Shown one piece after another: positions 21,463-35,360 of a stretch of 41,921 bases of DNA. The translations under genes were made by a program, and so were the position numbers. The DNA is from Candidatus Mailhella merdavium (GTDB lineage: Bacteria > Desulfobacterota > Desulfovibrionia > Desulfovibrionales > Desulfovibrionaceae). The stretch lies in contig DWXS01000035.1 of the NCBI GenBank assembly GCA_019119045.1, positions 1 through 41,921 on the forward strand. Direction: 5' to 3'. Below the pieces are notes generated by a model, which did not search any database, was not told where the DNA came from, and saw nothing but the letters and a program-made list of their open reading frames with translations. The stretch's first letter is position 1. Each line of letters opens with the position of its first letter.

Positions 21463-21478
21463 TGGCATGTTTCTTGCT
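21463..21478 (+). promoter_or_regulatory. Sigma-54 promoter for fliM
   Basis: TGGCATGTTTCTTGCT matches TGGCA-N6-TTGCW with GG and GC exactly ten bases apart. The predicted start is near 21490, about 90 bases before fliM. It lies in the divergent region shared with the RACo-like gene. Confidence 0.85.
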
Positions 21479-21580: not shown

Positions 21581-22561
21581 ATGGATAAAATACTGGCCCA
21601 GGATGAAGTCGACGCCCTGCTTCGGGGCTTGTCCGGCGGAGAGCTTGAAACGGAGACGGATATTCCGGAAGATGATTCCGGCATTGTTCCCTTCGATCTT
21701 GCCAATCAGGATCGTATTATTCGCGGGCGTATGCCGGTTCTTGAAATCATCAACGACCGCTTCGCCAGACTGTGTACCAATGCACTGACCAACGCGGTGC
21801 GCAAGCGCGTGGAACTGAACCCCATTTCCATCGATATGACCAAATTCGGGGAATTCATGCGTTCCCTGCCCGTGCCGACCAGCATCAACATTTTCAAGAT
21901 GGAACCCCTGCGCGGCAATGCGCTGATCGTCGTGGACGCCCGTCTTGTGTTTTCGCTTGTGGAAAATATCTTCGGCGGCATAGGTTCCCAGCCGAAGATC
22001 GAAGGGCGCGAGTTCACGCGCATCGAACAGGCCATTGTGGACAGGATCATCAAGATTGCCCTCCATACTATGGAGGACTCCTGGAGACCCGTACACGATA
22101 TCAAGATGGAACTCGTGCGCTCGGAAATCAACCCGCAGTTCGCGGCCATTGTGCCGCCCAGCGACGTGGTTGTCGTGATCAATTTTGAAGTGGAGCTGGA
22201 TTCTTCCATCGGCTCCATGATCATCTGCCTGCCTTACTCCACTATTGAACCCATACGCAGCAAGCTCAACGCCAACTATCAGACGGAACGTCTGGAAGTT
22301 GACCATGCCTGGGTCGGCCGCCTCAAGGATCGTCTCATGGAAACGCCGGTGGATTTGAAAATCCGCATGGGCGGCACGCAGATTACGGGCAATCAGCTGC
22401 TGCGCCTTCAGGTCGGGGATGTGCTGGTGCTGGATACGGACATAGAAGAACTGCTTCCCTGTACGGTCGCCGGGGTGGTGAAGTACTGGGGCATTCCCGG
22501 CACGGTGAAGTCAAACAAGGCCTTCCAGATCATCAAGAGCGAAGAACCGCAGTACGCATAG
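21581..22561 (+). CDS. fliM: Flagellar motor switch protein FliM
   Basis: This 326-residue protein links FliG to FliN in the C-ring and binds phospho-CheY at its N-terminus to reverse rotation. It opens with MDKILAQDEVDALLRGLSGG, the CheY-binding peptide typical of FliM, and continues through the CheC-like middle domain (about 45-230, with RSLPVPTSINIF and EFTRIEQAIVDRII) to the SpoA domain (about 255-320). GGGTGAG lies about 5 bases upstream of the ATG. It is alone here, between a sigma-54 promoter and a terminator, without fliN or fliL neighbours. Confidence 0.97.
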   Translation: MDKILAQDEVDALLRGLSGGELETETDIPEDDSGIVPFDLANQDRIIRGRMPVLEIINDRFARLCTNALTNAVRKRVELNPISIDMTKFGEFMRSLPVPTSINIFKMEPLRGNALIVVDARLVFSLVENIFGGIGSQPKIEGREFTRIEQAIVDRIIKIALHTMEDSWRPVHDIKMELVRSEINPQFAAIVPPSDVVVVINFEVELDSSIGSMIICLPYSTIEPIRSKLNANYQTERLEVDHAWVGRLKDRLMETPVDLKIRMGGTQITGNQLLRLQVGDVLVLDTDIEELLPCTVAGVVKYWGIPGTVKSNKAFQIIKSEEPQYA

Positions 22562-32375: not shown

Positions 32376-33890
32376 TCATGAACCCAGAGCAGCGCGTACC
32401 GCCCGGACAAGGCCGGGAATGGTGTATTCTTCCGGTTCGATATCGGGTTCAAGGCCCGCTTCCCGCAGAGTGGCGGACGTGATCGGGCCTATGCTGGCAA
32501 GTCTGGTTTCCGGATGTTCCTTCAGCAGTTCTGCCGGAAAGACGGAAAGAAAATTGCGCACGGTGGAGGAAGAGCCGAAGGTGATGCAGGAAAGCTTTCC
32601 TTCCTTAAGATCGTCGATCAGACGTTGCCTCAGCGCGGAGTTTTCCGCAGGCACCGTTTCATACGCCGCTACGACGTCCACGCTTGCGCCCGCCTTCGTC
32701 AGTTCGTCCGGGAGTACGTCGCGGGCCTTGAGCGCGCGGGGAAGAAGGATCTTCTTTCCTGCCACGCCGTCGGCAATCAGACCCTCGGCGGCACATTCCG
32801 CCACATGGCGGGAGGGAATGAAGTCCGGACGCAGGCCGAGAGCACGCAGACTGTTCCCCGTTGCCGGGCCGATGGCGGCGATGCGGACGCCGCCGAAGGC
32901 GCGGGCGTCCAGCCCCAGTTCTTCCAGCTTCCGGGCAAAAAATCTTACGCCGTTGGCGGAGGTGAACACCACCCAGTCATACGAGGCAAGCCGGGCAACG
33001 GCCTGCGTCAATGCCGAATCGTCCTGCATGGGGCGTATGGCAATGGTGGGGAACTGAATGACATGTGCGCCCAGTTCGGCAAACAGGGCCGCGCTTTCGC
33101 TGGCCTGTTCGCGCGCGCGGGTGATCACGATGCTGCGACCGAACAGGGGACGGCGTTCGAACCAGTCCAGCTTTTCGCGCATCCGCACCACCTGCCCGAC
33201 CACAATGACCGAGGGGTTGGAAAATCCCTGTCGGACGGCCTCCTGCGGAAGCTCCCCGAGCGTGGAAACCAGGGAACGCTGATGATCCGTGGTGCCCCAG
33301 TGAACGAGGGCGGAGGGCGTTTCCGCAGACATGCCGGCCGCAATCAGATTGCGGGAAATTTCCGGAAGGTTCTTCATCCCCATGACGAAAACCAGCGTGG
33401 AGGCGCTGCGTGCCAGAGCGTCCCAGTTATGCACCGAACCGGGCTTTGTCGGATCTTCATGACCGGTGATCAGCGTTACCGAAGAAGCCAGCGTGCGGTG
33501 CGTCAGAGGAATGCCCGCATAGGCCGGCCCGGCTATGGTGCTTGAAATGCCCGGAATTTCCTCAAAGGGAATATTCGCGTTGAAAAGTTCTTCGCCTTCT
33601 TCGCCGCCCCGTCCGAAAATATAGGGGTCCCCGCCCTTGAGACGGGCAACGACCTTTCCTTCTCTGGCAAGCCGGATCAGAAGCTTGTTGATTTCATGCT
33701 GGGGGAGCGCGTGATTTCCCGCCTTTTTGCCCACATATATGAGTTCAGCGTCGGGGCGGGCGTGGGCGAGCAGATCTTCGCTGGAAAGAAAGTCATAGAC
33801 CACGGCATCAGCCCGCTCGAGGGCGCGCAGTCCCTTCAGGGTAAGAAGACCGGGATCGCCCGGCCCTGCTCCGATCAGATATACGTACAT
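32376..33890 (-). CDS. cobA/hemD: Fused uroporphyrinogen-III C-methyltransferase / uroporphyrinogen-III synthase (CobA-HemD)
   Basis: This 504-residue fusion combines two tetrapyrrole activities. Residues about 1-245 are CobA (SUMT), with VYLIGAGPGDPGLLTLKG at the start, the SAM-binding LKGGDPYIFGRGGEE near 85 and GISSTIAGPAYAGIPLTHR near 115. Residues about 255-504 are HemD, beginning GRSIVITRAREQ and ending in a GPITSATLREAGL loop. It closes the porphyrin ring and then makes precorrin-2 for siroheme, cobalamin and (in sulfate reducers) heme by the siroheme route. The ATG at 33890 has GGAGG about 4 bases upstream; a longer frame upstream spans the promoter. It heads a minus-strand run with purN and AMMECR1. 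Confidence 0.96.
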   Translation of the reverse strand: MYVYLIGAGPGDPGLLTLKGLRALERADAVVYDFLSSEDLLAHARPDAELIYVGKKAGNHALPQHEINKLLIRLAREGKVVARLKGGDPYIFGRGGEEGEELFNANIPFEEIPGISSTIAGPAYAGIPLTHRTLASSVTLITGHEDPTKPGSVHNWDALARSASTLVFVMGMKNLPEISRNLIAAGMSAETPSALVHWGTTDHQRSLVSTLGELPQEAVRQGFSNPSVIVVGQVVRMREKLDWFERRPLFGRSIVITRAREQASESAALFAELGAHVIQFPTIAIRPMQDDSALTQAVARLASYDWVVFTSANGVRFFARKLEELGLDARAFGGVRIAAIGPATGNSLRALGLRPDFIPSRHVAECAAEGLIADGVAGKKILLPRALKARDVLPDELTKAGASVDVVAAYETVPAENSALRQRLIDDLKEGKLSCITFGSSSTVRNFLSVFPAELLKEHPETRLASIGPITSATLREAGLEPDIEPEEYTIPGLVRAVRAALGS

Positions 33891-33925
33891 TCCGCCTCCC
33901 GCAGAACTGTAAAGTTTCAGCGCAC

Positions 33926-33954
33926 ACTCTAGCCGGAAAGGTCTGCGGGGGCAA
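33926..33954 (-). promoter_or_regulatory. Promoter for cobA-hemD operon
   Basis: On the minus strand TTGCCC (33954-33949) and TAGAGT (33931-33926) are spaced by 17 bases. Predicted start near 33919, giving a 30-base leader to the ATG at 33890 and excluding the longer open frame. Confidence 0.55.
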
Positions 33955-33985
33955 GAACCGCTTCCCGACTTATCCTGATGGATTG

Positions 33986-34001
33986 TGGCATTATTTTTGC
34001 A
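33986..34001 (+). promoter_or_regulatory. Sigma-54 promoter upstream of the hydrolase-like gene
   Basis: TGGCATTATTTTTGCA fits TGGCA-N6-TTGCA perfectly at the conserved positions. The predicted start is near 34013. It is the third element of this type in the window; the other two drive fliG and fliM. Confidence 0.82.
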
Positions 34002-34157
34002 TTTTGATGTCTCGATCTGCCTCAAACGGAGTCCGAATAACTCCCGGATTCAGACATACAGCGGCAGAATATTTGATATTTCTTGATTTATTTATGGAAT
34101 AGCCCATGCGGGAGACCGTCAAAATATCGGCGCAGCATCGCCGTGGAGCCTGATGCC

Positions 34158-35360
34158 ATGATCGAACGAACCGTAATGATACGCAACCATATTGAGCCTG
34201 GAGACGCGGGAGAGAGCGTTCGCAAGGCCATGGGGGCGACAAGGGATACGGGCGGTTTTGCCCGCGCACTCGGAGAACAGGCCTCATTCGGAAGCCCGGA
34301 CTCCATCCTTCCTCAGGCCGGTGCGCTGGTAACGCCTTCGGCTCTGGGAGGTGTCTTCGGCAAGACGCTGGGGGAAAGGGCGGCGAGCGATCCGGCCCTT
34401 GCCGCCGCTCTCGGTCGGAGCAGCGCGGAGTCCAGGTCTGGCGGGACTCCTTCAGCGGGAGACGCAGGGAGTTCTGCCGGAGCCGCAGCCGCGTCCGGAG
34501 AGCAGGAGGAGCAGACGCAGGGCATTCCTCTGCGCAGGAGCAGCCGCATTTCACTGGACAGGGTTGCTCTGCCCCTGCGTCGCAGCAGCATGGCTCCGGG
34601 AATTTCTCTGTCCGCCGTCTCCGGCGGCATTTCTCTGGGAAGGAGAACGGGAGCCATTGCTCTTGACGAGCGTTCCCTGCGCACATTGAGCCGCGTGCGC
34701 GAAAAGTGCAGCGTGGAAGAAAAGCCCAGCTTTGACGAAGGGAGCCTGTCCGCTCGCTTCGAATCCGGAGGAGACGGTGCGGGGGCAATAGGATACGATC
34801 GCACGGGGGGCACTTCCTACGGATTGTATCAGATTTCCTCCCGTCAGGGGACGTTCGGGGAATTTCTGAAATATCTGGATGAGGAAGCTCCTTCGCTCGC
34901 CGAACGTCTGCGCGCTGCCGGCAATCCGAATACGGGCAATCGCTCCGGCTCCGTTCCGGAGGTCTGGAAGAGCATCGCAAAGGAAGATTCGCAGTATTTT
35001 GCTTCGCTGCAGCACGACTTTATCCGCAAGACGCATTTTGAACCCGTGGTGCGGGATGTGGAAAAGACCCTCGGCGTGAGAAAACTGTCCGAAGCCATGA
35101 AGGAAGTTGTCTGGAGTACTTCTGTCCAGCATGGCCCGAACGGAGCCAGACGTCTTTTTGCCCAGGCTGCGGAACAGGCCGGAAGCGAGGGCGGCAAGGT
35201 GGACGAACGGAAGCTGATTAAGGATGTGTACGCATTGCGGCGGGAGCAGTTCGGCTCTTCCGAAAGAGCGGTGCGCGACGCCGTGCAGCGTCGCCTTGAC
35301 GAAGAAAGGGAACTTGCGCTGGCCATGGTGGGAAAAAAGGGCGGCAGCGTCCTTGCCTGA
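34158..35360 (+). CDS. Signal-less peptidoglycan hydrolase-like protein under sigma-54 control
   Basis: The N-terminal half of this 400-residue protein is low complexity: Ala/Ser/Gly (about 30-120), then repeated hydrophobic-basic units of the form IPLRRSSRISL (about 122-175). Residues about 198-345 form a lysozyme-like domain starting RFESGGDGAGAIGYDRTGGT, with Glu202 as probable catalytic acid, and SYGLYQIS, LQHDFIRKTHFEPV and WSTSVQHGP motifs that resemble lysozyme/chitosanase-like domains in phage tail and VgrG-type proteins. No signal peptide is visible. The sigma-54 promoter links it to the flagellar genes, so it may be exported by the flagellar apparatus and cut the wall for the rod, as FlgJ does. 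GGAG lies 9 bases before the ATG. Function is inferred. Confidence 0.7.
   Translation: MIERTVMIRNHIEPGDAGESVRKAMGATRDTGGFARALGEQASFGSPDSILPQAGALVTPSALGGVFGKTLGERAASDPALAAALGRSSAESRSGGTPSAGDAGSSAGAAAASGEQEEQTQGIPLRRSSRISLDRVALPLRRSSMAPGISLSAVSGGISLGRRTGAIALDERSLRTLSRVREKCSVEEKPSFDEGSLSARFESGGDGAGAIGYDRTGGTSYGLYQISSRQGTFGEFLKYLDEEAPSLAERLRAAGNPNTGNRSGSVPEVWKSIAKEDSQYFASLQHDFIRKTHFEPVVRDVEKTLGVRKLSEAMKEVVWSTSVQHGPNGARRLFAQAAEQAGSEGGKVDERKLIKDVYALRREQFGSSERAVRDAVQRRLDEERELALAMVGKKGGSVLA

Follow-up and report, generated by a model that had tools for sequence, protein, structure and literature searches.

In beta- and gammaproteobacteria, FlgJ is both the rod cap and an enzyme of the GH73 family. 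Passages of a study on Salmonella describe its FlgJ as being secreted via the flagellar apparatus (PMC9307174). In delta- and epsilonproteobacteria, the two jobs of FlgJ are reported, in part of another paper, to be split over two distinct proteins (PMC8517470). SltF of Rhodobacter sphaeroides is a stand-alone glycan cutter in an organism whose FlgJ is without a muramidase domain. This lytic transglycosylase carries a signal sequence, and its export by Sec brings with it a risk of stray damage, as passages of the source point out (PMC7277832). BB0259/LTase of Borrelia burgdorferi is also a separate wall enzyme, needed for the passage of the flagellar structure, and has an SLT homologue in its C-terminal domain (PMC8517470, in an excerpt).

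Here we describe a gene from Candidatus Mailhella merdavium (Desulfovibrionaceae) that lies in a stretch of 41,921 nucleotides, the whole of which we call the window. We suggest, with a probability of about three in four, that it encodes a flagellum-exported peptidoglycan glycosidase which belongs to the flagellar sigma-54 regulon, opens the wall for the rod and is separate from FlgJ. The product is like the FlgJ of beta- and gammaproteobacteria in its putative role and in that no Sec signal is seen in it. Unlike that FlgJ, it has no rod-binding domain, belongs to another glycosidase family and has a gene of its own. It resembles SltF as a predicted stand-alone glycan cutter and LTase as a separate wall enzyme, but it differs from SltF in its domain family and in showing no Sec signal. 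Among the best matches in the open-licence literature, no title or abstract opening announced a flagellar enzyme of the VgrG3/GH46 type, and none of the papers among these matches names a flagellar enzyme for Desulfovibrionaceae. The class of function is known; what is new to it, as far as these searches show, is the family of the enzyme and its putative delivery signal.

The gene and its catalytic domain

The gene and the parts of its catalytic domain are as follows.

34158 to 35360, + strand: glycosidase-like gene, putatively flagellum-exported; intact open reading frame of 400 amino acids with an ATG start, stop codon included in the coordinates
34740 to 35306, + strand: catalytic domain, residues 195-383, PF21277, GH46-like fold (Pfam, phmmer, AlphaFold, Foldseek)
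34761 to 34763, + strand: codon of E202, predicted catalytic acid
34797 to 34799, + strand: codon of D214, predicted second catalytic acid

The ATG call at 34158 is supported because the orthologue in genome G089 begins at the matching position. Residues 1 to about 190 are largely disordered and the glycosidase domain comes after them. Residues 1-194 matched no family in the Pfam scan, and NCBIfam returned no name for the protein. The closest named relative is a Candidatus Mailhella protein with 70% identity. PF21277 occurs once in the organism's own genome (3.0 Mb assembly, 87.8% complete). Divergent from the gene there is a long open reading frame on the minus strand (32376-34025 of the window), which we take, by reading alone, to resemble a fused uroporphyrinogen-III methyltransferase/synthase.

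The domain matches PF21277 (T6SS_VgrG3-like_C) with an E value of 9.1e-32 and 111 bits against a cut-off of 27, over profile positions 2-182 of 183, and the GH46 profile attains its own cut-off of 27 bits. These are the sole Pfam matches in the protein; the VgrG core, the rod-binding domain PF10135, the GH73 glucosaminidase domain and the SLT domain are all absent from it in the Pfam scan. In phmmer, the solved VgrG3 domain is matched at 4e-12. The top ranks in Foldseek are 4noo (E 5.8e-8) and 4nso (1.6e-7), with GH46 chitosanases next. The AlphaFold model, built from 50 sequences, has block pLDDT values of 85-98 over residues 191-390, but 68 in residues 211-220, the block that contains D214; over residues 1-160 the value is 50 or less. 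The protein thus shares its domain family and fold with the C-terminal domain of VgrG3 (PDB codes: 4NOO, 4NSO) and with GH46 chitosanases. Unlike VgrG3, it has no match to the VgrG core, and it tracks flagella rather than type VI secretion (T6SS). The earlier note had predicted a lysozyme-like C-terminal domain of phage or VgrG type. The motifs FESGG (which includes E202), YGLYQIS and VQHGP are all present, and the profile and fold comparisons give a VgrG3/GH46 glycosidase and not an unrelated fold.

We compared orthologues in a panel of 42 loci, each of them the best match in one of 42 genomes chosen among the 126 positive Desulfovibrionaceae; the panel covers 40 of the 41 positive genera, with three rows from genus g1 and without g19. 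Both E202 and D214 are invariant in this panel (42/42) and in a second alignment (50/50). The catalytic residues of VgrG3 are a glutamate and an aspartate 15 residues further on. In the alignment with VgrG3, E202 stands in the column of the catalytic glutamate and D214 is one column off the catalytic aspartate. This offset and the low pLDDT of the block around D214 count against the proposed acid pair. The enzyme would be of the muramidase or glucosaminidase type, acting by a two-acid mechanism with E202 and D214. In genus g39 (G038, G066, G085, G100, G112, G145) the domain match is partial or is split near residue 340, pointing to a putative insertion inside the catalytic domain.

The N-terminus and its export-type motif

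The prediction that the protein has no signal peptide agrees with the hydropathy of the 42 orthologues, in which no strongly hydrophobic N-terminal stretch is found. The highest ten-residue mean Kyte-Doolittle value within the first 45 residues has a maximum of 1.74 and a median of 0.885. No Sec signal sequence is seen in any of the 42, as judged by hydropathy alone. The N-terminal half is poorly conserved among these orthologues and varies in length and sequence. It carries one short element of note.

34257 to 34271, + strand: FARAL, residues 34-38, of the form F-x-x-x-hydrophobic, similar in sequence to the FlhB gate-recognition motif

Early flagellar export substrates have a gate-recognition motif whose general formula is F-x-x-x-hydrophobic, and FARAL resembles this motif. 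In passages of one study, the motif of FlgD is placed at 36-40 and those of rod and hook subunits at least 30 residues in (PMC8983047). A match to the formula starting at residues 25-62 is found in 39 of the 42 orthologues, the exceptions being G009, G025 and G044, against 9.9 ± 2.7 in shuffled N-termini (maximum 20 in 2000 rounds) and 129 of 371 neighbour open reading frames. Other spacings were found in 1 (x1), 22 (x2), 11 (x4), 11 (x5), 15 (x6) and 13 (x7) orthologues, all to be compared with about 10 in shuffles, and seven alternative first residues in place of F gave no excess. The motif case has its limits: so short a pattern was compared among sequences that share ancestry, and the x2 spacing is raised too (22 against 10.0), with x6 raised slightly. 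In a second set, which reaches other orders, takes in Syntrophobacteraceae and Desulfarculales, and partly overlaps the panel, the motif is present in 61 of 64 loci; 80 loci were named and 16 without a usable open reading frame were dropped. FlgJ has the motif in 42 of 42 cases, but this is a weak positive control because the pattern falls in a conserved region, near residue 50 in the printed sequences.

Other features of the N-terminus can be set beside the motif. I2, V6 and I8 are present near the start, as candidates for the small non-polar N-terminal residues of early substrates. The orthologues are poor in cysteine, with 10 cysteines in 16237 residues, and their N-terminal parts contain 0.1% cysteine against 1.2% in neighbour open reading frames. 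We suggest that the unstructured N-terminus bears an early-substrate export signal. Because no Sec signal is seen and the N-terminus has this candidate signal, the protein would leave the cytoplasm through the flagellar gate.

Regulation, gene neighbours and co-occurrence with flagella

Three elements of the sigma-54 type and two flagellar genes of the window are of interest here, the elements having been found by pattern matching.

33986 to 34001, + strand: sigma-54 (-24/-12) promoter-like element, exact TGGCAYN5TTGCW, 172 bp before the ATG
21463 to 21478, + strand: sigma-54 element, exact, ahead of fliM
1483 to 1498, + strand: sigma-54-like element, one mismatch, ahead of fliG
1645 to 2652, + strand: fliG, with a FliG_C match at 2299-2619
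21581 to 22561, + strand: from the open reading frame list, presumably fliM (named by reading)

As the earlier note said, the same kind of sigma-54 element precedes this gene, fliM and fliG; the pattern is exact at the first two and has one mismatch at fliG. When the final base is dropped, the exact pattern is found at two places in the window against 0.26 expected, and one of 100 shuffles equals this. With up to one mismatch, the window count is not significant (4 seen against 2.87 expected), so the case for sigma-54 rests on conservation in relatives. Within 300 bp upstream, TGGCAYN5TTGCW with at most one mismatch is found at 35 of the 42 orthologues against 10 of 444 other open reading frames of the same loci, and the pattern TGGCAN6YTGCW at 18 of 42 against 4 of 488. 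Two other kinds of upstream site showed no enrichment and were rejected: the FlbD/DVU1063-type site GGCAxxxxTGCC (6/42 with at most one mismatch against 85/444) and a sigma-28 promoter (4/42 with at most three mismatches against 39/444). For Desulfovibrio vulgaris, passages of a published survey give flagella as the largest single function under sigma-54, with 19 of 85 operons (PMC4641369). Its flagellar activator DVU1063 is reported in a further study to be missing from just one of the Desulfovibrio that were compared, the non-motile D. piger (PMC3333781).

The gene neighbours give a mixed picture. No neighbour is conserved within the Desulfovibrionaceae panel, where the commonest neighbour cluster occurs in 6 of 42 loci; these clusters come from a simple longest-frame caller, which may choose the wrong frame. 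In D. cuneatus, flgI-flgJ-flgN-flgK follow the gene at a distance of about 2.2 kb and share its strand, and an opposite-strand open reading frame is called in the space between. Outside the family, the next gene was profiled in 8 of the 18 listed loci and is fliK (PF02120) in six of them (L127, L128, L131, L132, L133, L167), on the same strand and about 200-370 bp on; in L146 and L166 the next same-strand gene is not fliK. Thus the neighbour survey that the earlier note proposed gave no flagellar gene that is conserved next to this one in the family panel, and gave one, fliK, in most of the loci profiled beyond it. A FlgE/FlgG-like gene is also nearby in L132 and a CheZ gene in L147. An apparent adjacency to FlgJ in L119 was rejected, as the neighbour's match is to the M23 domain only.

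Across 149 Desulfovibrionaceae genomes, relatives of the protein are present in 126, FliG_C in 129 and the FlgJ rod-binding domain in 130. The gene and FliG are both present in 124 genomes and both absent in 18, with five having FliG only (G049, G052, G067, G123, G124) and two having the gene only (G030, 64% complete, and G113, 88% complete). In the 120 good genomes, defined by completeness of 90% or more and contamination of 5% or less, the numbers are 107 with both, 11 with neither, two with FliG only, one of which has a fragment of the gene at a contig edge, and none with the gene only. Fisher p values are 8e-17 for the 149 genomes and 7e-14 for the 120, with kinship among genomes ignored. 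The gene state of G123, G124 and G126, which are absent from the match listing, was deduced from lists, and G136 was counted as positive on a weak partial match (E 6e-7). In a more sensitive search, the last part of the gene, its C-terminal end, was found at the start of a contig in G067, and nothing convincing was found in G049, G052, G123 and G124. Three of these four are 54-79% complete, and G124 is in about 820 contigs. Joint absence of the gene and FliG is repeated, since genera g1, g7 and g41 each contain members with both and members with neither. Thus the proposed link to flagella is borne out among the relatives with and without FliG: the gene is missing in just five of the 129 FliG-positive family genomes, and is present in none of the 11 good FliG-negative ones. 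Some genomes, among them G002, G009, G045, G050, G065, G075, G094, G106 and G118, encode one or two additional relatives of about 370-520 amino acids.

Beyond the family the link is looser. Among 199 genomes drawn from the whole order, PF21277 and FliG occur together in 156 and are both missing from 23; three have PF21277 only and 17 have FliG only. The three are G503, where the domain is part of a 1537-residue frame, and G491 (85% complete) and G494 (83% complete), which carry the short form and whose FliG state was deduced from their being missing from the positive list. The 17, out of 173 flagellate genomes, are G067 and 16 genomes of sister families (eight in f97, six in f96, one in f99 and one in f100); no PF21277 was found among the genomes drawn from f97 or f100. 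In the phylum-wide draw, PF21277 is present in 25 of 297 genomes, with the rows L080-L087 scored for the gene alone. Given the family counts and the 16 FliG-only genomes of other families, the link between gene and flagella is near-perfect inside Desulfovibrionaceae and partial outside. The 16 genomes speak against a universal role.

A housekeeping or division peptidoglycan enzyme that merely happens to be under sigma-54 control would be compatible with the lack of a conserved flagellar neighbour in the family panel. In D. vulgaris, sigma-54 also drives many non-flagellar genes and widely regulates genes of the cell exterior, according to passages of the same survey (PMC4641369). We nevertheless consider this explanation very improbable, because such a gene is missing from every good family genome that is without FliG, its product shows no signal peptide and the export-type motif is present in nearly all of the panel.

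FlgJ, viral relatives and the proposed role

The organism has a FlgJ of its own, and this bears on what the glycosidase could do.

Contig C5, L036:5975-7936, - strand: FlgJ of the same genome, with an M23 peptidase that a linker of about 420 residues separates from the rod-binding domain (matched at G000:C5:24591-24731)

We scanned 42 FlgJ proteins, namely those of 40 carriers of the gene and of G067 and G003, with G089 and G030 left out and FlgJ at contig ends included as read. No Pfam family other than the rod-binding and M23 domains was found in them. Pfam finds M23 in 21 of the 42, supplying the count alone; reading of the tails identified six M23-like domains without HxH. In the 40 carriers, 14 FlgJ have M23 with HxHF, six have an M23-like domain without HxHF and 20 have no enzyme. 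The 16 flagellate genomes of sister families that have no PF21277 yield a rod-binding match in 13 cases, of which 12 are readable (that of G488 is not). Seven of the 12 have an M23 tail with HxHF, and five are single-domain proteins of 94-118 amino acids. The five belong to families f97 (G445, G453, G465, G469) and f100 (G439). In these five genomes either another enzyme must act or none is needed. From the FlgJ domain counts, FlgJ-borne enzymes come and go and the glycosidase gene is nearly constant in the family. The earlier note saw in the gene a possible equivalent of FlgJ as the wall-opening enzyme. This is supported in that a non-FlgJ enzyme domain tracks flagella, but the own-genome FlgJ bears M23, so the glycosidase would be a second enzyme and not simply a replacement for FlgJ. 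The genome also encodes ten SLT domains (L214-L221 and two further places), and six of the eight SLT proteins that were read by eye have a signal-peptide-like or lipoprotein-like N-terminus. With the M23 hydrolase of FlgJ and the ten SLT domains, other enzymes could open the wall.

These observations also bear on whether a flagellum-exported wall enzyme would serve the rod at all. It could instead make room for anchoring of the stator or P-ring, remodel the wall at the hook stage or be released onto other cells. The place of fliK, a hook-stage gene, downstream in the profiled loci outside the family fits such a use, as does the M23 enzyme already present in the own-genome FlgJ, and the motif indicates an early-type substrate, no more. 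On the other hand, in half of the 40 carriers FlgJ is enzyme-free and in six its M23-like domain has no HxH, so that the rod of these carriers has no FlgJ-borne enzyme. Moreover, the occurrence of the gene follows that of FliG within the family. We therefore regard a use other than rod passage as unlikely.

The nearest solved relatives belong to the C-terminal domain of a T6SS spike, VgrG3, and relatives are also encoded on viral contigs, in 144 stretches, of which 80 were kept, with domains 35-51% identical. A T6SS effector, or a remnant of a prophage lysin or tail, could be imagined from this. However, no VipB, the T6SS sheath protein, was found in the own genome (about 88% complete), and of the 149 family genomes 38 have VipB, compared with 126 that have the glycosidase gene; the T6SS reading was rejected on this basis. 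The viral relatives have a homologous catalytic domain but are mostly longer, with a median open frame of 968.5 amino acids (some cut by locus ends). The median from the domain start to the protein end is 293 residues in the viral proteins against 204-220 in the flagellar-type rows of other families. In a tree of 120 domains, from which 31 of 151 rows had been removed as duplicates, 67 flagellar-type rows (42 from the panel and 25 from other families, three labelled Myxococcota) are on one side and 51 viral and two long cellular rows are on the other. The branch that separates them has support of 95/96 and is in 98% of bootstrap trees. The domain of G503, the sole good FliG-negative carrier in the order set, is part of its long frame, and in the tree it groups with the viral rows at the end of a long branch. 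As the viral relatives are longer and outside the flagellar clade, the prophage reading was rejected as well, and of all the explanations weighed here an effector or a prophage remnant is the least credible.

Returning to our main proposal, a flagellum-exported glycosidase which makes the opening in the wall that the rod needs, we suggest the following pathway. The flagellar sigma-54 regulon would include the gene for this dedicated peptidoglycan glycosidase. Still unfolded, the product would pass through the type III export gate of the flagellum and then through the growing proximal rod. On reaching the rod tip it would fold in the periplasm and cut glycan strands there, and with these strands cut the distal rod could cross the wall. 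FlgJ would act alongside as the rod cap; in this species and some others it would also contribute the M23 peptidase for the peptide cross-links.

Since the tree was rooted at its midpoint, it does not tell which way the domain was transferred. For the origin of the gene we think it slightly more likely than not that a muramidase domain of the virus or T6SS type was captured once in Desulfobacterota. With the addition of a signal for recognition by the FlhB gate at its N-terminus, this domain would have become an enzyme of flagellar assembly, and would be delivered through the rod to the very spot of the wall that has to be opened. It would pair with FlgJ in some species as a two-gene cutter of glycan and peptide, and would stand in for the FlgJ enzyme where M23 has decayed or is absent.

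The proposed role bears on how flagella cross the wall in the many lineages whose FlgJ is without a glycosidase. The proposal predicts roles for the F34 motif, for E202 and for sigma-54 dependence. If it is true, delivery through the rod would avoid the problem of stray damage that is raised by the Sec-exported SltF, and a weapon domain of phages and T6SS would have been turned into a builder's tool.
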